Shown here in pieces: positions 873 through 32,483 of a stretch of 64,000 bases of DNA. Numbering within the stretch: the stretch's first letter is position 1; every line of letters begins with the position of its first letter. Below the pieces are notes generated by a model that saw nothing but the letters and a program-made list of their open reading frames with translations, searched no databases and had not been told where the DNA came from. Source of the DNA: Akkermansiaceae bacterium (GTDB lineage: Bacteria > Verrucomicrobiota > Verrucomicrobiia > Verrucomicrobiales > Akkermansiaceae). The position numbers and the translations under genes were made by a program. Where the stretch lies: positions 1-64,000 of the forward strand of contig CANLKN010000001.1 of assembly GCA_947491475.1 (NCBI GenBank), given 5' to 3'.

Positions 873-989
873 CTGTAGCGGCGGTCTATGACCGCCGATG
901 CCGATGAAATGCGCGAAGCCTCTTCATTGGCTTTCCCATGACATCTCGCCCTCGGGGGTAGCCAGCGACGCTCACAGACCGCCGCCACA
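873..989. repeat. Palindromic intergenic repeat, copy A (~117 bp)
   Basis: Begins ctgtagcggcggtct..., ends ...gctcacagaccgccgccaca (inverted ends); shares internal gcgcgaagcctcttcat and agccagcgacg with copy at 23092. Confidence 0.8.
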
Positions 990-3969: not shown

Positions 3970-3994
3970 CTGTAGCGGCGGTCTGTGACTGTCG
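3970..3994. repeat. Partial (one end only) copy of the ctgtagcggcggtctgtga repeat
   Basis: ctgtagcggcggtctgtgactgtcg immediately after the ppdK stop; matches the end of copies A/B. Confidence 0.6.
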
Positions 3995-4103
3995 CCAAAG
4001 TTCAAACCAAAGCCGCTCCGGGGAACCGGAGCGGCTTTTTTTGCGGATTCGACCGTTTCTCCCCGGATCAGGATGTCTCAGCCGTAATCATGCTGTGCAC
4101 CAT

Positions 4104-4241
4104 CGTGGCGCGGGCGTTTCGCCCGCAGACCTTCTGCAAATCCTTGTCACTTGCAAGCAGACGCCTGACACACCCATTGATGAGTTTTTTGGCATGCAGC
4201 AGCCGGCTTGATATGGCGGCGGGCGAGACGCCCGCGCCACG
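4104..4241. repeat. Inverted-repeat element with 23-bp GC-rich ends
   Basis: cgtggcgcgggcgtttcgcccgc (4104-4126) vs reverse complement of 4219-4241, cgtggcgcgggcgtctcgcccgc: 22/23 identical. Confidence 0.8.
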
Positions 4242-17214: not shown

Positions 17215-17484
17215 ATGAGTGCACTCGGAATGATTGAAACCAAAGGCTACGTCGGCAGCGTCGAAGCCACAGATGCGATGGCCAAAGCGGCCAACGTCCA
17301 ACTTGTGAACCAAATCCAGATCGGCGGAGCCTTCATGACCGTCATCGTCAAAGGCGACGTCGGCAGCGTGAAAGCCGCCGTGGATGCCGGTGCCGATGCT
17401 GCCGGCCGCGTCGGCGAGCTGGTCTCCGCCCACGTCATCGCCCGCCCACATGCGGAACTGCTCAGCCAGTTTGGAATCGCCTGA
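17215..17484 (+). CDS. BMC-H microcompartment shell protein (hexamer) 1
   Basis: [28 protein letters not shown]...[20 protein letters not shown]...[10 protein letters not shown]. Confidence 0.96.
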
Positions 17485-17521
17485 AAACCAAATCACTTTT
17501 AACCAATAACCTCTAACTAAA

Positions 17522-17800
17522 ATGGCCAAACAAGCAATCGGCATCATCGAAACCAAAGGTTTCGTCTCACTCGTGGAAGCTTCCGACGCGGCGCTCAAAG
17601 CCGCCGACATCAGAATGACCGGCTGGGAGAAAATCGGCTCGGGCCTCGTCACTGGTTTCTTCACCGGCGATGTCGCCGCTGTGAAGGCCGGCCTCGACGC
17701 CGCTGCCGCCGCAGCCTCCAACCTGGGACAAGTTTCGTCCGTCCAAGTCATCCCGCGTCCGCACGACGAGCTGTCGAAGCTCGGCTCGTGGATGGGTTGA
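17522..17800 (+). CDS. BMC-H microcompartment shell protein 2
   Basis: MAKQAIGIIETKGFVSLVEASDAALKAADIRMTGWEKIGSGLVTGFFTGDVAAVKAGLDAA. Confidence 0.96.
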   Translation: MAKQAIGIIETKGFVSLVEASDAALKAADIRMTGWEKIGSGLVTGFFTGDVAAVKAGLDAAAAAASNLGQVSSVQVIPRPHDELSKLGSWMG

Positions 17801-21224: not shown

Positions 21225-21236
21225 GACCAAAGACTT

Positions 21237-21269
<33 letters not shown>

Positions 21270-21334
21270 AAAGAGCAAGCACCGCGTGAAGCTCCCCTAA
21301 TAACCAATATCCAATAACTAATAACCGTTACCCA

Positions 21335-23033: not shown

Positions 23034-23091
23034 TGTGGCGGTTGAGACTGGAGCGATCCAGGAAACGCTCCCCGGTTTGGACATGTCTGAA

Positions 23092-23210
23092 CTGTAGCGG
23101 CGCTCTGTGAGCGTCGATGCTCAAGAACCGCGCAAAGCCTCTTCATAGACTTTCTCGTTGGCATCTCAGCCGCAGGGCCAGCCAGCGACGGTCGCAGACC
23201 GCCGCTACAG
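23092..23210. repeat. Palindromic intergenic repeat, copy B (~119 bp)
   Basis: ctgtagcggcgctctgtgagcgtcgatg...cagcgacggtcgcagaccgccgctacag; inverted ends, shared interior with copy A. Confidence 0.8.
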
Positions 23211-24515
23211 TCATCCGATCAAATCCCCGATTGAGCCGAAGTCCGGCGAGAACAGCCGCTTGTAGGTGCGCGCGGCATAACCATCGGTCATGCCGGCTAG
23301 GAAATCGCAGACCAGCCGGGCGCGTGTCGCCTCGTCGGGCGCGGCGCTGATTTCCGCAGCGGTATCCGCTGGCAGGAGCTGGAAGTCCTGGCCGTCGATG
23401 GTGCCGCCCGCGATGTAGCGTTCGCCGAGCACCTGCCACATCTGCCGCAGCATCCGGCTGCCTTTGTGTTCGAGTTGTTTCAACTGCGGCGATAGAAAAA
23501 CCACTTCGAAGGCCAGACGCTTGAACAAGGTGGACTCCGCTTTGACATCCTCATCGATGACGAGCCGGTAGTGATAACGGTTGGTCGCCGCGCTGAGGAA
23601 ATTCACATCCGTTTCCAGCCGGGTGGACTGGATGTAGCGGCCGATGCGCTTGCCGACAAAGGGATCAACGCGCCGCAGCCGGATCGAGCGCATCAGGTCG
23701 CCGAGCGGCGTGCCTTCGCCCGACGAATGACCGTGTTGTTCCGCCCAGGTCTCGATTTTCTCGATGTTGAGAAACCCGGCGCGCACGCTGTCGGAGAGGT
23801 CGTTGAGCGAGTAGGCTGTGTCGTCCGCCCAATCCATCACCTGGCACTCGATCGACTTGAACTTGTCGCGCACAGCGCCGGGAGGCAGCTCTAACGGAAA
23901 GTCATGGCTTCCCATCGCCCAATTGAGATGCGCCTGCTGGTCATCATAAATGAAGTGATGCTCCGGCGTTTCCCCGCTTGCGGTCTTCAGCTCGGACCAC
24001 AGGGATTTGTATTTCAATATGCCGTCGAGAAACGCGCGGCTTGGGTCCATGCCGGCGCGTTTGGCTGAAAAGATCCGCTCGGTGAGCAGCCGCAAGGTCT
24101 GCGCATTGCCTTCGAATCCGCCATGGTGGAGCATCAGGTGGTTGAGCGTGCGTTCGCCCGCATGGCCGAAGGGCGGGTGGCCGAGGTCATGGGAAAGGCA
24201 GACCGCTTCCACCAGATCCGCATCGATGAAGAAATCGTCCTCCAAGGGACCATCCGGCCGCGATTTGAGCCAATGGCAGATCGACTTGCCGATCTGCGCG
24301 ACCTCCAGCGAGTGTGTCAGCCGCGTGCGGTAGAAATCATACTCGCCGCTCCAGAATACCTGCGTCTTGTTCTGCAGTCGGCGGAATGTCGGCGTGTGCA
24401 GCACCCGGTCGCGGTCGATCTGGAACGGCGAGCGGAAATCGCCTGAATCCGGTTTGCCCGAGAGTCGTTGCGTGTCGAAATCCCCGTAGAAGCGGTTGCG
24501 CATGCCGCAGATCAT
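23211..24515 (-). CDS. dgt: Deoxyguanosinetriphosphate triphosphohydrolase-like HD protein
   Basis: FRRLQNKTQVFWSGEYDFYRTRLTHSLEVAQIGKSI; HDLGHPPFGHAGERTLN; DWADDTAYSLND. Confidence 0.92.
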   Translation of the reverse strand: MICGMRNRFYGDFDTQRLSGKPDSGDFRSPFQIDRDRVLHTPTFRRLQNKTQVFWSGEYDFYRTRLTHSLEVAQIGKSICHWLKSRPDGPLEDDFFIDADLVEAVCLSHDLGHPPFGHAGERTLNHLMLHHGGFEGNAQTLRLLTERIFSAKRAGMDPSRAFLDGILKYKSLWSELKTASGETPEHHFIYDDQQAHLNWAMGSHDFPLELPPGAVRDKFKSIECQVMDWADDTAYSLNDLSDSVRAGFLNIEKIETWAEQHGHSSGEGTPLGDLMRSIRLRRVDPFVGKRIGRYIQSTRLETDVNFLSAATNRYHYRLVIDEDVKAESTLFKRLAFEVVFLSPQLKQLEHKGSRMLRQMWQVLGERYIAGGTIDGQDFQLLPADTAAEISAAPDEATRARLVCDFLAGMTDGYAARTYKRLFSPDFGSIGDLIG

Positions 24516-24793
24516 GGAGTGGGTAACCCGGATTCAAATCACGAAATTCGGGTTCCCGTGATTTGCAAGTGAAGGCGGGCTTGGCAGGGTGGGGGACTTC
24601 ATCCGGGTGGATAATCAGTCGAAAACGCGAATTTTCGTCACTTGCCCAGTGACGTGGCCTCGTGCCACCCATGCGCAGCTCAGCAAGGGGAAATTTTTGC
24701 GAAACCACGCTTGCGGGGTATCTGTCATGCACACATAGTCGCGCGCGACCCGACCGGGGCCCAGAGCGGACCGGACGTGATTTCAATCAAGCC

Positions 24794-26551
24794 ATGAGCG
24801 ACACATCTTCGGCGACTGCGGAACTGACACTGCCTAAAGACCTTGCGGCCGCAAACGGCATGGTGAATGTGCAAATCGACGGCGTCTGGCACCAGTTTCC
24901 CAAAGGCACGCGGATGATCGAAGCCTGCCGGAAAGTCGGCACCATCGTCCCACACTATTGCTACCACCCGAAGCTGAGCTCGCCCGGAAACTGCCGGATG
25001 TGCCTCGTCCAGATGGGCATGCCCCCTCGCAGCGCGCCTGGCCAGCAACCGCAGCGCGATGAAAACGGCTACGAGCCGATCGGCTGGATGCCCCGTCCCG
25101 TGATCGCCTGCGCCAACACGGTTTCGGAAAACATGGGCATCCGCACCTCCGGCGAGCTCGTCGAGAAATGCCGCGAGGGCGTGATGGAGTTTCTCCTCAT
25201 CAATCACCCGCTGGATTGCCCGATCTGCGACCAGGCCGGCGAGTGCCGTCTGCAGGAACACTCGGTGGAACACGGCCGCGGTGCCTCGCGCTTCGTGGAC
25301 ATGAAGGTGAAAAAACCGAAAAACGTCGAGATCGGCCCGCGCATCCGGCTCGACGACGAGCGCTGCATCATGTGCAGCCGCTGCATTCGCTTCATGGACG
25401 AGGTCGCTGGTGATCCGGTGCTCGGTTTCACCCAGCGCGGCACCCACACCACTCTAACAGTCCACCCCGGCCGCCTGTTGGATTCCAACTACTCGCTCAA
25501 CACCGCCGACATCTGCCCGGTCGGCGCGCTGACATCGAATGATTTCCGCTTCCAGATGCGGGTCTGGTTTCTCAAAGAAACCCCGACCATCGATGTGAAC
25601 TGCGGCACCGGCACCAACATCACCGTCTGGGCCCGCGGCAATACGATCCACCGCATCACCCCGCGCCAGAATGACGAGGTGAACTCGACCTGGATGCCGG
25701 ACTCCCATCGTCTTAACTTCCACTACATCGATGGCGAGGCGCGCTTCACCGAACCGCTCTCCAAGGTGGATGCCCAGCATCAAGCGGTTTCCTGGACCGA
25801 TGCGCTGAAAACCGCCGCTGCGAAACTCAAAGCCGTCTCGCCCGGCCAAATCGCCATCATCGCCTCCGGCCGCATGACCAATGAGGAGTTGTATCTAACC
25901 AAATCGCTCGCCGCGCAAATCGGCTCCCCTCACCTCTCGCTCGTGCCGCGTTTCGCCGAACCGGACGCCCTGCTCATCGCCGCCGACCGCAACCCGAACA
26001 CCACCGGCGCGAAACTCGTTCTGGAAACCGAAGACCCCTTCGCCAAACTCGATTCGATCCGCGAAGGAGTGCGCTCGGGACAAATCAAGGCGCTCATCGT
26101 GCTCGGCGAAGACCTGGTCACCGACGCCGGATTCCATTTCTCCGACCTCGCCAACCTGGATTTCCTGGTCCAAACCCAGATTCTCGCCAACCCCACCGCG
26201 CTGGCGGCCGATCTGGTGCTGCCCGCCGCCGCCTTCGCCGAGAAACGCGGCTCAATGGTCAACCTCTCCGGCCGTCTCCAGCGCCTCAACCGCGCCGTGG
26301 AGATGCCCGGCCAGGCACGCGACGACTGGGAAATCCTCCGCGAGCTGATCATCGCCCTGTCCGGTGAAAACAACGATATCCATCTGATCGAGGACGTCTT
26401 TAAGGCCATGGCCGAAGCCGTTCCGCCATTCAGCGGACTCACGCTTTCCAAAATCGGCCACCAAGGCACGCAAGTCCTCGAAACCGGCTATCGGATCCCG
26501 CTGCTCGCCAATGAACGCGCCGCCAAGGCCGCAGGACGAATCAATGGGTGA
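24794..26551 (+). CDS. nuoG: NADH-quinone oxidoreductase subunit G
   Basis: IVPHYCYHPKLSSPGNCRMCLV; NHPLDCPICDQAGECRLQEHS; RCIMCSRCIRFMDEVAG; NTADICPVGALTSNDFRFQMRVWFL. Confidence 0.95.
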   Translation: MSDTSSATAELTLPKDLAAANGMVNVQIDGVWHQFPKGTRMIEACRKVGTIVPHYCYHPKLSSPGNCRMCLVQMGMPPRSAPGQQPQRDENGYEPIGWMPRPVIACANTVSENMGIRTSGELVEKCREGVMEFLLINHPLDCPICDQAGECRLQEHSVEHGRGASRFVDMKVKKPKNVEIGPRIRLDDERCIMCSRCIRFMDEVAGDPVLGFTQRGTHTTLTVHPGRLLDSNYSLNTADICPVGALTSNDFRFQMRVWFLKETPTIDVNCGTGTNITVWARGNTIHRITPRQNDEVNSTWMPDSHRLNFHYIDGEARFTEPLSKVDAQHQAVSWTDALKTAAAKLKAVSPGQIAIIASGRMTNEELYLTKSLAAQIGSPHLSLVPRFAEPDALLIAADRNPNTTGAKLVLETEDPFAKLDSIREGVRSGQIKALIVLGEDLVTDAGFHFSDLANLDFLVQTQILANPTALAADLVLPAAAFAEKRGSMVNLSGRLQRLNRAVEMPGQARDDWEILRELIIALSGENNDIHLIEDVFKAMAEAVPPFSGLTLSKIGHQGTQVLETGYRIPLLANERAAKAAGRING

Positions 26552-26561
26552 GAGGTTACAT

Positions 26562-26581
26562 GTTATTTGTTAAAAGTTATT
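26562..26581. repeat. Left inverted repeat flanking the four-helix-bundle gene
   Basis: gttatttgttaaaagttatt; 19/20 identical to the reverse complement of 27001-27020. Confidence 0.8.
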
Positions 26582-26591
26582 AGGAAAAAAT

Positions 26592-27005
26592 ATGGATCGC
26601 GAATCGCTCAGAACGTTTGAAGATCTGGAATGTTGGAAGGCATGCCGGGAACTCCGTGTTTTCGTGGCCCGGAAGTTCTGCAAGGCGCTTCCAAAAGACG
26701 AACGCTACCGGATGGGCGATCAAATCCTGCGTGCGGCCAGATCCACCACCGCCAACATTGCTGAAGGCTGCGGACGCTTCCACTATCTCGACAACGCCAA
26801 GTTCTGCTCGAATGCCCGTGGTTCCTGCTGGGAAACCATCGACCATATGATCACAGCAGCCGATGAAGACCTGGTAAGTGAAGAGATTCTCATTCAAGGC
26901 CGTGAGATTGCCACCAAAGCCGTGGCACTCCTGAACGGCTACATTTCTTACCTCAGAAAAGCCGCCACCACCAAACCCAGCCACGAGGGTGGATCATCCA
27001 AATAA
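26592..27005 (+). CDS. Four-helix-bundle protein, S23/23S rRNA-intervening-sequence (IVP) family
   Basis: TFEDLECWKACRELRVFVARKFCKALPKDERYRMGDQILRAARSTTANIAEGCGR, typical IVP/S23 sequence. Confidence 0.88.
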   Translation: MDRESLRTFEDLECWKACRELRVFVARKFCKALPKDERYRMGDQILRAARSTTANIAEGCGRFHYLDNAKFCSNARGSCWETIDHMITAADEDLVSEEILIQGREIATKAVALLNGYISYLRKAATTKPSHEGGSSK

Positions 27006-27020
27006 CTTCTAACAAATAAC
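27001..27020. repeat. Right inverted repeat flanking the four-helix-bundle gene
   Basis: aataacttctaacaaataac, followed by a further iteration ttctaacaaatt. Confidence 0.8.
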
Positions 27021-27046
27021 TTCTAACAAATTAAACCACTTCCACC

Positions 27047-28306
27047 GTGCCAGACCTCCTCTTCCAACTCGCCATCATCCTGGTGAAAATCGTCGCGCTG
27101 ACGTTCTGCGTCGTGCTGCCGCTCGTTCCCATTTCGGTTTACTTCGAGCGTCGCTTCTGCGCCGTCATCCAGGACCGCGTGGGGCCGAACCGCACAGGCA
27201 TTCCCCTCACCTTGTTAGGCTTCAAGAAGGACTTCCACTTCTTCGGCCTGATCCAGCCGATGGCTGACGGCGTGAAACTCTTCCTCAAAGAGGACTTCAC
27301 TCCCAACTACGTCCGCAAGGCCTTCTATTGGCTGGCACCCGCGCTCACCGTCGCACCGGCGCTCATCACCGTCTGCGTGGTGCCCTTCGGCTCGCCAATC
27401 ACCCTCTTCGGCCACAAGGAAAATCTCGTCATCGCGGATCTCGATGTCGGCCCGCTGTTTGTTTTCGCCGTCTCCTCGCTCACAGTTTACGGCATCACCT
27501 TGGCCGGCTGGTCGTCCAATTCGAAATACCCGCTCATCGGCGGCGTGCGCTCCACCGCGCAGATGATCTCCTACGAAATCGCCCTCGGTCTTTCGATCAT
27601 TCCGGTGCTGCTCTATTTCGGCGAACTCAACCTCGGCAAAATCGTCCAGCATCAGGCTGACCACGGCTGGCTGCTTCTTCCGCTTTGGCAAAATGGCAGC
27701 CTCGGCCTGCCCGATCTGCAAACCGCGCTGTTCTGGATCCCGGCTGTCATCGCCTTCCTCATCTTCACCATTTCCATCTTCGCGGAAACCAACCGCATGC
27801 CCTTCGACCTTCCCGAGTGCGAGACCGAACTCGTCGGCGGCTACCACACCGAATATTCGTCGATGAAATTCGCACTCTTCTTCATGGGCGAATACGCCGC
27901 CATGGTCATCGGCTCGGCGCTGATCGTCACCCTCTTCCTTGGCGGATGGTCGCTCGGCTTCGGCCTGGACAAATACATCGCGGATTTCCATATCGGCGGC
28001 TTCCACTTCGGTGGGCTGATTCATCTCGGCATTTTCATCGCCAAACTCATCGCCTTCATCCTGTTCTTCATCCTCGTCCGCTGGACCGTGCCGCGTTTCC
28101 GCTACGACCAACTCATGAAACTCGGCTGGGTGATCTTCTTCGAGGCCGCACTCATCAATGTCTTTCTCGCGGCGCTCATCATCGCCGCACCGGAGCTAAC
28201 CGCCGCCATCATCGGCATCGGTGCCGTATTGCTCATCGCCGTCACCGCCGCCATCATCTGGGTCGCCAAAGTTTCCGAGGAGCACCCGAAGCCATTGCGC
28301 GCCTGA
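27047..28306 (+). CDS. nuoH: NADH-quinone oxidoreductase subunit H
   Basis: YFERRFCAVIQDRVGPNRTG; ETNRMPFDLPECETELVGGYHTEYSSMKFALFFMGEYA. Confidence 0.96.
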   Translation: MPDLLFQLAIILVKIVALTFCVVLPLVPISVYFERRFCAVIQDRVGPNRTGIPLTLLGFKKDFHFFGLIQPMADGVKLFLKEDFTPNYVRKAFYWLAPALTVAPALITVCVVPFGSPITLFGHKENLVIADLDVGPLFVFAVSSLTVYGITLAGWSSNSKYPLIGGVRSTAQMISYEIALGLSIIPVLLYFGELNLGKIVQHQADHGWLLLPLWQNGSLGLPDLQTALFWIPAVIAFLIFTISIFAETNRMPFDLPECETELVGGYHTEYSSMKFALFFMGEYAAMVIGSALIVTLFLGGWSLGFGLDKYIADFHIGGFHFGGLIHLGIFIAKLIAFILFFILVRWTVPRFRYDQLMKLGWVIFFEAALINVFLAALIIAAPELTAAIIGIGAVLLIAVTAAIIWVAKVSEEHPKPLRA

Positions 28307-28349
28307 CACCGGATTTCAAATCTCAAATTTCAAATTTCAAATCCCCCAC

Positions 28350-28916
28350 ATGGCCGTCATCAAACTCCAGCGCCCCAAGCTCAACTTCGGTGAGAAGATT
28401 TACTTTGGAGCCCTGATCAAGGGCTTCATTCTCACCATGACCCACGCGGTCAAGTCGCTATTGGGCAAATCCGCCAGCGCGGATTCCATGGCTTCCTCCG
28501 GCCTCGGTGTGACCATGCAGTTTCCCGAACAGCGCTGGGATGAACACCTGCCCGAATACTACCGCGGTGCGCCCGCTCTGGTCACCGACGAACAGGGCCG
28601 CGAGCGCTGTGTTTCCTGCCAGCTTTGCGAGTTCATCTGCCCGCCCAAAGCCATCAAGATCATACCAAGCGAAATCCCATCCGACGACCCATGGGCCAAG
28701 GTGGAAAAGCGGCCGAAGGAATTCGATATCGACATGATCCGCTGCATCTACTGCGGCATGTGTGAGGAAGTCTGCCCCGAGCAGGCGATCTTCCTCCGCA
28801 AGGATTATCTCATCACAGGCCTCAAGCGCGCAGACATGGTGCACGACAAGAAACGCCTCTATGAAATTGGCGGCGTCCGCACCGGATTGGTGAACAAATG
28901 GAATGAACTGAAATAA
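28350..28916 (+). CDS. nuoI: NADH-quinone oxidoreductase subunit I
   Basis: Two 4Fe-4S motifs CVSCQLCEFICPPKAI and CIYCGMCEEVCPEQAIF. Confidence 0.95.
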   Translation: MAVIKLQRPKLNFGEKIYFGALIKGFILTMTHAVKSLLGKSASADSMASSGLGVTMQFPEQRWDEHLPEYYRGAPALVTDEQGRERCVSCQLCEFICPPKAIKIIPSEIPSDDPWAKVEKRPKEFDIDMIRCIYCGMCEEVCPEQAIFLRKDYLITGLKRADMVHDKKRLYEIGGVRTGLVNKWNELK

Positions 28917-29479
28917 TGCCCTCTTACCTCTTCTGGCTCTTCTCAACCATCATGCTCATCGGCGGGGCCGCGGTCGTCGCATTCCGCAACCCGGTGTCCA
29001 GCGCCCTATCGGTGGTTACTTGTTTCATCGGACTCGCAGGCTTGTTCATCGGGCTGAGCGCCTTCTTTGTCGGAATCATCCAGATCCTCGTCTATAGCGG
29101 TGCGGTGATGGTGTTGTTTCTGTTCATCATCATGCTGCTCGACCTCAAGGACGAGCAGAAGCGCGCCAAGGGGTTTGCTCCTCTGGCGGCAGGTATCGGT
29201 CTGGCCATCGCCTTTGTCGTCCAACTCATCGGCGTGCTCTCGCGCACCCCGAACAAGGTCGCCCCACCACTTGATGCGCAATCCCTGGCTGCTGCAGCTG
29301 GAAATTTTGTGCCCGGCACCAAAATCGCAGCCGCCCTCAAGGACGGCCGCCTGCCCGATGTGCATCTCATCGGCCACACCCTCTTCACCCAATACAACCT
29401 CCCCTTCCAGATTCTGGGCGTCCTGCTGCTAGTCGCCACGGTCGGAGTGGTGGTGCTTTCGAAAAAACAAGCAGAGTAA
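28916..29479 (+). CDS. nuoJ: NADH-quinone oxidoreductase subunit J
   Basis: FRNPVSSALSVVTCFIGLAGLFIGLSAFFVGIIQILVYSGAVMVLFLFIIMLLD. Confidence 0.93.
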   Translation: MPSYLFWLFSTIMLIGGAAVVAFRNPVSSALSVVTCFIGLAGLFIGLSAFFVGIIQILVYSGAVMVLFLFIIMLLDLKDEQKRAKGFAPLAAGIGLAIAFVVQLIGVLSRTPNKVAPPLDAQSLAAAAGNFVPGTKIAAALKDGRLPDVHLIGHTLFTQYNLPFQILGVLLLVATVGVVVLSKKQAE

Positions 29480-29600
29480 GACAGAAGACCATGAGACAGA
29501 AGACAGAAGAAAAGAATTCGCGACCCTGTTGCCGGGCCGACGCTTTCCCACGCTTGCGTCCTGTCTTCTGTCTTCTGTCTCCAAGTCTTCTGTCTCTCAT
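29479..29600. repeat. Inverted-end element of gacagaagacagaag words (~120 bp) between nuoJ and nuoK
   Basis: Left arm gacagaagaccatgagacagaagacagaagaaaag; right arm ctgtcttctgtcttctgtctccaagtcttctgtctc. Confidence 0.75.
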
Positions 29601-29611
29601 CTACTAATCCC

Positions 29612-29929
29612 ATGGCCACTCTCAACGACTACCTCCTCGTCTCCGGCCTGCTCTTCGCCATCGGCCTGGCGGGCGTAGTGATCCGCCGCAATATCATCGT
29701 CGTCTTCATGTGCCTTGAGTTGATGCTCAGCGCCGCCAACCTCAGTCTGATCTCCTTCTCTCGCTTCAACACCATCAACGGCCTGCCCGACTACAACGGC
29801 CAGATGCTCGTCTTCTTCGTCATCACTGTCGCCGCCGCCGAAGTCGCCGTCGGACTCGCCATCATCGTCGCGCTCTACCGCTCCCGCCAAACCATCCACA
29901 CCGATGAGCTGACCAGCCTGAAAGGATAA
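29612..29929 (+). CDS. nuoK: NADH-quinone oxidoreductase subunit K
   Basis: [52 protein letters not shown]. Confidence 0.95.
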
Positions 29930-29981
29930 GATTTAACCACTGATTTCACTGATTGACTGATCAAAAGACCCCGCTCTTCCC

Positions 29982-31781
29982 ATGACTTTAGCCTGGATTC
30001 TCTTCTACCTGCCGATTGCGGTCGCCGCGGTCAACCAGTTGGTGTTGCGCCGCAATCCACTGGTGCCTTACCTGGCCACGGCGGCGGCGGGCGCCTGTTT
30101 TGTCACCTCGCTGTTGCTGCTCGGCACTACGGAAACCTCCGGATTTTCCTGGGCCACCGTGGGCGGACTGGACATTAAGATCGCCCTCAAGCTCGACCAC
30201 CTCTCCACCGGGATGATGGTGGTTGTCACCGGAGTCGGGCTGCTCGTGCATGTCTTCTCGCTCGCCTACATGAAGAAGGACGAGGCGGTGAACCGCTACT
30301 TCTGCGGTCTCGGTTTGTTCATGTTTTCCATGACGGGCATCGTGCTCTCTGAAAACTTCATCATGATGTTCATCTTCTGGGAACTGGTGGGCCTGAGTTC
30401 CTACCTGCTCATCAGCCACTGGTATCACAAGGACAGCGCCGCGGATGCCGGTAAAAAAGCCTTCCTCTGCAACCGTCTCGGCGACTTCTCCTTCATGATC
30501 GGCGTGCTGCTGCTGTGGGGCATCTCCGGCAGCCTGACCTTCGAAGGGCTCAAATCCTGGGCCGATGGGGGCGGCGTGGCCGCGGCATCGACAGGCGTGC
30601 TGGGTGCCGCCATTCTCTGCATTTTCGGCGGAGCAGTTGGAAAATCCGCCCAGCTACCGCTCCACGTCTGGCTGCCCGACGCGATGGAAGGCCCTACACC
30701 CGCCTCTGCGCTCATCCACGCGGCGACGATGGTGGCGGCGGGTGTTTACATGTTGTTCCGCCTCCAGCTTTCCATCGGTGCCGAAGCTTTTGCCGGATTC
30801 GCAGGCACTACCATCGCTTGGATCGGCGGCCTCACCGCGCTGCTCTCCGCGCTGATGGCGTCGCAGCAGAACGATATCAAGCGTATCCTCGCCTACTCCA
30901 CCTTGTCGCAACTCGGCTACATGATCATGGCCGTTGGCCTGCTCGCGGGCGAGGCCGGCATGTTCCACCTTTACACCCACGCATGGTTCAAAGCCCTGCT
31001 CTTCCTCGGTGCGGGTTCCATCATCTACGCCTGCCACCACCAGCAGAACATCTGGAAAATGGGAGGATTGTTGCGAAAAATGCCGATCACCGCCGCCAGT
31101 TTCGCGGCAGGCACCGCCGCGCTCATCGCAGTGCCCTACGTGACTTCCGGTTTCTGGTCGAAAGAGGAAATTCTCACCGCCGCCTACAATGGAAACAAGT
31201 TCCTGTTCGTAATCGCAGTGGCGGTTGCATTCCTCACCGCCTTCTACATGACCCGTGCCTTTGTGGTCACCTTCCTCGGCAAGCCCAGATCGGACGACGC
31301 TTCGCACGCCCACGAGGTGGGTCCTTTCATGTGGATCCCGTTGGCTGTGCTCGCGATCCTAGCCATCGTTTCCGGCTTCGGATTTGTTAGCGAAAAGCTA
31401 AACGCCACGCGCCCGGAGCACACCGCCAACACCACGGTCCTCATTGCCTCCATCGCCACGCTGGTCCTGGGAGTCGGTGCCGGCTTTGTCCTCTACCGTG
31501 GCAAGGAATCCGATCCTCTATCGATCCCGCTTTTCCGCGATCGCTTCTACTTCGATGGTTTCTACGACAACTTTCTCGTCCGCTATTTCCAAGATGCGTT
31601 CGCCGCCATCATCCACTTCTTCGACGAACTCCTCATCAACGGCCTGCTCGTCGGCGGCCTCAGCCGTGGTGCTGTCAGTGTCGGCAATCTCTTTCGCAAA
31701 CTCCAAGGCGGCCAACTCCAAGCCTACTCCTTCGCTTTCGGCCTCGGAGTGATTCTCGTCATCTATTTTACCGTGTTTTGA
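29982..31781 (+). CDS. nuoL: NADH-quinone oxidoreductase subunit L
   Basis: FIFWELVGLSSYLLISHWY; GKSAQLPLHVWLPDAMEGPTPASALIHAATMVAAGVYM; DIKRILAYSTLSQLGYM. Confidence 0.96.
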   Translation: MTLAWILFYLPIAVAAVNQLVLRRNPLVPYLATAAAGACFVTSLLLLGTTETSGFSWATVGGLDIKIALKLDHLSTGMMVVVTGVGLLVHVFSLAYMKKDEAVNRYFCGLGLFMFSMTGIVLSENFIMMFIFWELVGLSSYLLISHWYHKDSAADAGKKAFLCNRLGDFSFMIGVLLLWGISGSLTFEGLKSWADGGGVAAASTGVLGAAILCIFGGAVGKSAQLPLHVWLPDAMEGPTPASALIHAATMVAAGVYMLFRLQLSIGAEAFAGFAGTTIAWIGGLTALLSALMASQQNDIKRILAYSTLSQLGYMIMAVGLLAGEAGMFHLYTHAWFKALLFLGAGSIIYACHHQQNIWKMGGLLRKMPITAASFAAGTAALIAVPYVTSGFWSKEEILTAAYNGNKFLFVIAVAVAFLTAFYMTRAFVVTFLGKPRSDDASHAHEVGPFMWIPLAVLAILAIVSGFGFVSEKLNATRPEHTANTTVLIASIATLVLGVGAGFVLYRGKESDPLSIPLFRDRFYFDGFYDNFLVRYFQDAFAAIIHFFDELLINGLLVGGLSRGAVSVGNLFRKLQGGQLQAYSFAFGLGVILVIYFTVF

Positions 31782-31821: not shown

Positions 31822-32070
31822 ATGGCCACATCCATTACGATCCGAAACCTGGACGAAAAAGTGAAACAACGCCTCCGCGTCATGGCGGCGACTCATGGCA
31901 AATCCATGGAGGCGGAAGCACGCGACATCCTCACAATTGCTGCCTTCAACCGACCAACCGACTCCTCCTCTTCGCAATCTTCCACCGAGGATGTCTGCTC
32001 GTCCGTTCGGGGCATTTGGAAAGGTCGCTTTACGACGGACGAAATCATGGAAATGACCCGTGGAGAATGA
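31822..32070 (+). CDS. FitA-type antitoxin (ribbon-helix-helix)
   Basis: MATSITIRNLDEKVKQRLRVMAATHGKSMEAEARDIL; ATGA overlap with downstream PIN toxin. Confidence 0.88.
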   Translation: MATSITIRNLDEKVKQRLRVMAATHGKSMEAEARDILTIAAFNRPTDSSSSQSSTEDVCSSVRGIWKGRFTTDEIMEMTRGE

Positions 32071-32483
32071 CCCTGATGCCAGCCTTTATCGATACAAATG
32101 CCATACTCGATGTCACAACCCATGATCCCATCTGGAATCAATGGTCGAGTCATGTCATCAACCAACATGCGCCCGGCGGGCTTTTCATCAATCCTTTCGT
32201 CTATACGGAACTCTGCATCGGCGCTGAATCCACCGAGGAAGTGGATGCTGTCATCACAAAACTTCGGCTTTCTTATGTGGAACTACCCGCATCCGCCCTG
32301 TTTCTTGCCGCCAAGGCATTCCGCGATTACCGCTCGCGCGGCGGCACCAAAAGGTCTCCCCTCCCTGATTTCTTCATTGGCGCACATGCCAAGGCCCTCG
32401 GCTTTCCTCTCATCACCCGCGATGTGAAACGCTATCGAACCTACTTCCCGGAAGTCCCGCTCATCACTCCCGACCCATCCTGA
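32067..32483 (+). CDS. VapC/FitB-type PIN-domain ribonuclease toxin
   Basis: MPAFIDTNAILDV; YTELCIG; LPDFFIGAHAKALGFPLITRDVKRYRTYFPEVPLITP. Confidence 0.9.
   Translation: MTLMPAFIDTNAILDVTTHDPIWNQWSSHVINQHAPGGLFINPFVYTELCIGAESTEEVDAVITKLRLSYVELPASALFLAAKAFRDYRSRGGTKRSPLPDFFIGAHAKALGFPLITRDVKRYRTYFPEVPLITPDPS

Follow-up and report, generated by a model that had tools for sequence, protein, structure and literature searches.

The window, i.e. the whole 64,000-nt stretch of Akkermansiaceae DNA that was analysed, contains at positions 26555–27034 a unit of ~480 bp in which an S23/IVP gene (PF05635) lies between two inverted arms made of 7-nt words. The unit stands between two host genes of the + strand, namely nuoG (24662–26551, with its stop at 26551) and nuoH (27047–28306, starting at 27047), which are only 29–70 nt apart in most relatives. 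The enclosed gene (26592–27005, + strand) encodes a four-helix-bundle protein of 137 amino acids that matches PF05635 (E 1e-24) and TIGR02436 and has solved structures among its relatives (2GSC and 2RLD), as expected from the original prediction, which had placed an IVP-type gene of this length between nuoG and nuoH. The same prediction claimed inverted ends of 20 bp with a further downstream iteration, and these are indeed present: gttatttgttaaaagttatt at 26562–26581 matches its inverted counterpart at 27001–27020 over 19 of 20 positions, and the right-hand repeat continues with an extra iteration at 27015–27034. Inverted 20-mer matches with ≤3 mismatches are found four times in the window versus never in 100 shuffles. 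After extension, the arms cover 26555–26585 and 26997–27027, each with 31 nt, a complementarity of 87% and a spacing of 411 nt. Their period of 7 nt corresponds to the ‘iterated word’ noticed originally, which is GTTANNN when read inward. The left arm (26555–26585, + strand; GTTACAT GTTATTT GTTAAAA GTTATTA) begins 3 nt past the nuoG stop codon, and the right arm including its extra iteration (26997–27034, − strand; inverted GTTATTT GTTAGAA) covers the IVP stop codon and ends 12 nt short of the nuoH start. The predicted RNA fold of the element pairs the left arm with the right arm; this pairing is its only informative part, since the energy computed for the entire fold is unremarkable (z −1.16). 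No Rfam family was matched in window positions 24600–30000.

Related features are found elsewhere in the window. An element devoid of any open reading frame (ORF) occupies the nuoJ/nuoK gap (29479–29595), with inverted arms of AGACAGA heptads around a core of ~50 nt; it is the clear case among the ORF-less inverted-end elements that the original prediction had reported from the window. Solo arrays also occur, one of GTTANNN heptads without partner arm (17480–17525, − strand), and one of four exact AGACAGA words directly after a stop codon (21225–21275, + strand). In the genome of the window (G000), all four IVP genes have inverted arrays of heptads on both sides, with a different word for each gene (AGACNCA, CCAGANN, GTTANNN or TTGAACA), and all four elements lie between co-directional genes, snug against the upstream stop codon. 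Arms alone are dispersed through the same genome: about 11 ORF-less AGAC inverted pairs (for example the nuoJ/nuoK element and pairs on contigs C7, C13, C25, C36 and C47) were counted versus one AGAC-type IVP element, and four ORF-less GTTA pairs (C13, C15, C58 and C148) versus the IVP element of the window, while solo arrays of IVP-element words are frequent. The suggestion that ORF-less elements are relatives of the IVP cassette is supported by these words, shared with resident IVP copies, and by the words alone, since the inner sequences of the ORF-less copies are unrelated and have nothing in common. A census of 864 kb of G000 sequence, picked regardless of IVP content, gave seven iterated inverted pairs, while five second-order Markov controls contained none. 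Reversal of the GTTA pattern did not provide a clean control, as the reversed pattern seems to match another heptad family. This control, ATTGNNNATTGNNNATTG, has 48 matches in G000, where a GATTGNN heptad family seems abundant; the GATTGNN word was also seen at two IVP loci of relatives (L219 and L228).

Other repeats of the same genome are worth recording. At three places in the 864 kb (window 4104–4241, G000 C8:34339–34477 and C13:33524–33661), the GC-rich arms CGTGGCGCGGGCG...GCGCCACG enclose, as inverted repeats, a core of ~90 nt. Several copies of TGTAGCGGCGGTCT.GACCGC, which represents a third family of inverted repeats, lie in the window (874–989, 23091–23211 and 3971–3995).

How far the association between IVP genes and matching arms extends was determined in two collections of loci. 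These loci are best family matches, so that intact copies are favoured, and contigs were scanned with a profile of six IVPs, the alignment of all 29 being too diverse. In G000 and related genomes, inverted arms above threshold flank 34 of 40 IVP loci, versus 4.4% matching when arms are swapped between loci. In a broad set covering Acidobacteria, Planctomycetes, Clostridia, Bacteroidetes, Proteobacteria, CPR and others, 67 of 79 loci pass, versus 4.6% of swapped arms. The same arm-score threshold was applied to real and swapped pairs, without correction for relatedness among loci. Equivalent inverted repeats around random genes would have refuted the prediction, but other ORFs at the loci of the first collection are flanked by matching arms in only 4.6% of cases, most of which concern antisense frames of IVP itself, whereas the arms of IVP genes match across phyla. 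The best period is 7 nt in most cases (49 in the broad set and 25 in relatives) or else 8 nt (15 and 5), and arm length is about four words (median 4.4). In 82 of 88 arms, G outnumbers C in the inward word, which can be interpreted as an arm that barely pairs with itself while pairing well with its partner. Where both neighbours are co-directional, the element has the orientation of the operon in a ratio of 53:7. Words are alike only between elements with similar proteins, a relationship that holds above 60% identity and is weak below. The data show a discrete insertion unit, in which the arms match each other and the words vary between elements.

The operon settings of IVP genes include unrelated ones such as cmr2-cmr3, nrdB-nrdA (in antisense) and conjugation genes; the nrdB-nrdA element, from Nostoc edaphicum (L252), goes against the orientation bias. 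Copy counts are limited by the draft state of genomes. No near-identical recent duplicates were seen among the sampled copies of G015, G002, G029 and G030, where the best identity is 76%, indicating no recent burst in these samples. With the query used, no IVP match was found in 50,697 phage records. At one locus (L231, G029 2569500–2584000), several IVP genes or fragments, one of them with an in-frame stop, are gathered in about 12 kb.

A prediction on the heptad words could be made from the literature. GGGAATC heptad repeats have been described in Xanthomonas, with about 70 inverted pairs in Xanthomonas campestris and in general no association with insertion sequences, transposons or mobile elements (PMC4692102). 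If IVP elements are the source of these repeats, an IVP gene of the XCC0516 type, i.e. that of the crystallised S23 protein of Xanthomonas (2GSC), is predicted to carry GGGAATC arms, and this was met by the two closest XCC0516 orthologues found (86–87% identical). Heptad arms are present at 28 of 31 Xanthomonadaceae IVP loci, and the location is accB-accC in 30 out of 30 sampled loci. The word at this site differs between genomes (GGGAAT, GGGATT, GTGAAT or GTGATT), with left and right arms agreeing in each of the 22 accB-accC loci compared, over the four word classes. The two separated arms change in concert, which is expected if they must pair or share one reading protein.

As signs of a transposable cassette, the original prediction had proposed to look for empty sites in relatives, presence/absence polymorphism among strains and target-site duplications. 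Empty sites do occur in relatives, including at nuoG-nuoH, and pairs of occupied and empty sites were identified at seven cyanobacterial plasmid sites. On a T. variabilis plasmid, a 423-bp IVP element is found where the plasmids of N. linckia and Fremyella are empty; the alignment is that of a clean insertion with 5 bp, GTAAT, duplicated at both ends and overlapping the upstream stop codon. Polymorphism is evident at two sites of a Nostoc plasmid operon, where some plasmids have the element and others lack it, even inside one strain. Four further pairs come from Nostoc MS1, Aulosira, Calothrix and Picosynechococcus 7003, the last at cmr2-cmr3, where Picosynechococcus PCC 7002 has no element. 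Target-site duplication is supported only in part: apart from the clean case of T. variabilis, a duplication of 7–10 bp is suggested in Nostoc MS1 by a TACTAAG flank on both sides of the element, and none could be resolved at the remaining sites, so that no fixed length is established. Closer to the window, the AGAC-type IVP copy of G000 (L001) has no counterpart at the orthologous position in the sister genome G016 (85–87% DNA identity), and the nuoJ-nuoK junction lacks the ORF-less element in G016 and seven other relatives; at the ORF-less site between atpA and atpG, comparison with G016 left the junction unresolved. Gain or loss at such sites was inferred from context.

Truncated IVP genes were also encountered. 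Elements with an internal deletion are exemplified by C052 pE (L240:1450–1590), which retains only the left arm, and by the nuoG-nuoH site of G032 (L029), where both arms are retained. Such elements may be steps on the way to ORF-less copies and solo arms.

The history of the window copy can be followed in nuo operons. The element is also found between nuoG and nuoH in G006 and G018; an IVP gene kept there without inverted ends would have contradicted the prediction, but the ends are conserved with it. The same junction is clean and short in G016, and solo arms of a like word remain in G014 and G019. The nuo-operon IVPs of the genus form one clade (100/100), with those of nuoG-nuoH as a subclade (99/95), and close relatives of the window protein were found only in nuo operons, as judged by distance to nuoH. 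On the species tree, gains or losses at nuoG-nuoH fall in two separate groups. The best reading of these trees and junctions is that the window copy is an old resident with repeated losses leaving solo arms, not a recent arrival. G018 has two nuo copies, at G-H and I-J; the latter groups with the G-H clade by protein and by its GTTA word, unlike other nuoI-J copies, suggesting that it may have arisen by a local hop. A clade confined to nuo operons and mostly lost implies that mobility is slow and local here, and mobility in general rests on the other evidence. The suggestion of a transposable cassette is supported by the arms across phyla and by the empty sites, with the qualifications that the window copy is not a recent insertion and that movement was not observed.

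The nuo operons contain other insertions. A DUF6036 nucleotidyltransferase gene with a small second ORF lies in the nuoH-nuoI gap of G016, G008 and G010 (L006, L010 and L025). In the window, another insertion in the operon is a FitAB/VapBC-like toxin–antitoxin pair between nuoL and nuoM (31822–32483), in which an 82-aa antitoxin-like protein precedes a PIN-like protein.

A different gene is associated with arms of another type. Inverted arms were found at 23 of 30 loci (L104–L133) of GxxExxY genes (PD-(D/E)XK; PF13366), with a period of 8 or 9 nt and never 7, and words such as CGCCAAGA, ACGCAGAGG and ACAGGATTT. On this sequence evidence, GxxExxY genes appear to be a second class of mini element. 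One such gene was seen in the nuoH-nuoI gap of G023 and G012 (L024:2325–2796). The GxxExxY nuclease was also considered as an obligate partner of IVP and rejected, since G000 is without any, yet has IVP elements and ORF-less copies.

Altogether, the window unit is probably a small mobile element, in which two arms of about four iterated words, usually of 7 nt, surround one S23/IVP gene. The IVP protein would be the trans-acting factor that recognises the words of both arms, and would spread its own copy along with copies lacking the ORF, much like RAYT with its REPINs; both steps are likely but inferred, without binding data and without observed movement. The main argument for IVP as the recognition factor comes from the ends, whose type can be predicted from the gene: 7/8-nt words with IVP and 8/9-nt words with GxxExxY. 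With less certainty, and still untested, IVP may act as a toroidal pentamer in which each subunit reads the next word along an arm that is single-stranded or forms a stem, in a manner comparable with the TRAP ring, which reads spaced triplets. The arms may also pair into a stem that RNase III could excise from mRNA, which would render insertion between operon genes tolerable. Strand cutting and joining, a chemistry that was not observed, might be left to a host enzyme or to an unknown activity, and at least five genomes with IVP genes would at present do without a resident reverse transcriptase (RT). Several points speak against mobility: no transposition event is observed, the vertically conserved copies of nuo and accB-accC could be host genes, and the co-direction bias could reflect selection after insertion rather than mechanism.

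Other explanations have to be weighed against the same data. Neither a nuclease nor a recombinase signature is recognised in IVP, only PF05635/TIGR02436 being above cut-off, and this lack of a catalytic signature leaves room for heptad pairs that are passive repeats, dispersed by some unrelated enzyme of the host or of a transposon, with IVP as a captured gene having another role, e.g. in binding or regulating its own mRNA. Vertical fixation of some copies and the commonness of solo arrays are consistent with such passivity, which is nevertheless unlikely because the captured gene is, with few exceptions, IVP at 7/8-nt words and GxxExxY at 8/9-nt words, the similarity of words goes with that of proteins above 60% identity, and the nuoI-J copy of G018 bears the GTTA word typical of the clade of its protein and not that of other nuoI-J copies. 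Immobility is the essence of another explanation, quite improbable in our opinion, in which IVP is a host operon gene (a nuo accessory or RNA-processing factor) while the arms form a stem in the mRNA and thereby adjust the expression of neighbours. Its presence in unrelated operons, the frequent empty sites (one with a boundary duplication) and the frequent loss in close relatives, with solo arms left behind, are difficult to reconcile with a host function, even if the fixed accB-accC position, the nuo-confined clade in the genus of the window genome and the 53:7 orientation with the operon would fit.

Finally, spreading could proceed by reverse transcription of the element transcript, with an RT acting in trans and IVP as its Avd-like partner. 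This is very unlikely. RVT_1 has no match in five genomes of at least 94% completeness (G005, G006, G018, G029 and G038) that carry 2–9 IVPs each, one of them being a single contig with seven IVPs, which rules out an RT as obligate partner in current genomes; likewise, ORF-less copies have no common internal sequence, whereas homology of S23 with Avd (PMC10053308), insertion in transcript direction (53:7) and short, variable boundary duplications are what reverse transcription has in its favour.

The mobile element with IVP as its recognition factor can be integrated in a wider picture, which we put forward only tentatively: a bacteria-wide class of mobile elements in which S23/IVP proteins are recognition subunits and a pentameric ring reads the 7-nt word in both arms, imposing the period and letting the word drift freely if both arms drift together. 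The class would take in the GxxExxY nuclease elements with their 8/9-nt words, and would be the source of most bacterial heptanucleotide repeats and of the S23-type intervening sequences (IVSs) of rRNA. In the literature searched, S23 is described as of unknown function and heptad repeats are described without source; no paper joining IVP genes to iterated inverted ends was found, and because most subscription journals were outside the search, priority is uncertain. The protein family and the repeats are each known, but the element is widespread, apparently undescribed and new as a kind, because it falls short of at least one defining criterion of every known family of mobile elements considered. 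S23/IVP proteins, which are common in bacteria, have solved structures and unknown function, and their association with heptads ties together these proteins, the heptad repeats published from several phyla without an account of their spread, and the ‘parasitic’ S23 IVSs. It predicts that an IVP protein binds the word flanking its own gene, and that there exists a class of mobile elements without known transposase, along with a second one (GxxExxY) with another word period.

Among known systems, one of the closest involves RAYT, a Y1/HUH nuclease that spreads REPINs, i.e. inverted pairs of REPs carrying a conserved tetranucleotide tag. Like IVP elements, it combines a single protein gene with numerous short hairpins dispersed between genes of the same genome, has inverted arms and is often kept vertically, and dispersed intergenic inverted pairs are likewise present in G000. 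IVP differs in being a four-helix bundle instead of a Y1 (HUH) transposase, and its arms are made of iterated 7-nt words that differ between elements and have no common tag. DDE insertion sequences with their MITEs share inverted ends, non-autonomous copies and a possible short target duplication, but the IVP element has no transposase (IVP is the sole gene inside the window element) and its end sequences vary from copy to copy. Avd of diversity-generating retroelements is a homologous four-helix-bundle protein (PMC10053308); these retroelements require an RT and template/variable repeats, whereas IVP elements encode no RT.

The 23S rRNA IVSs of Leptospira and Coxiella (PMC4990558) have in common with the window element an S23p family protein and stem-forming complementary borders, as well as the sporadic presence of IVP elements. 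They are described as parasitic elements of unknown mobility, their excision by RNase III is established, and the same paper (PMC4990558) cites the S23 crystal structure as a toroidal homopentamer. No description of iterated-word ends or ORF-less copies for IVSs was found in the literature examined. IVSs reside inside rRNA genes, while the window element lies between the protein genes nuoG and nuoH; an rRNA location was excluded for the sampled IVP loci, none of which contains 23S sequence. Lastly, published heptanucleotide repeats include TAACTGA in Beggiatoaceae (PMC4679880) and those of trnL P6b in Nostoc (PMC4476775), besides GGGAATC. None has been connected with IVP, their origin and spread being left open (PMC4679880, PMC4692102 and PMC4476775), but all have the same period and intergenic setting as IVP arms, and GGGAATC is the exact arm word of the IVP elements orthologous to XCC0516.
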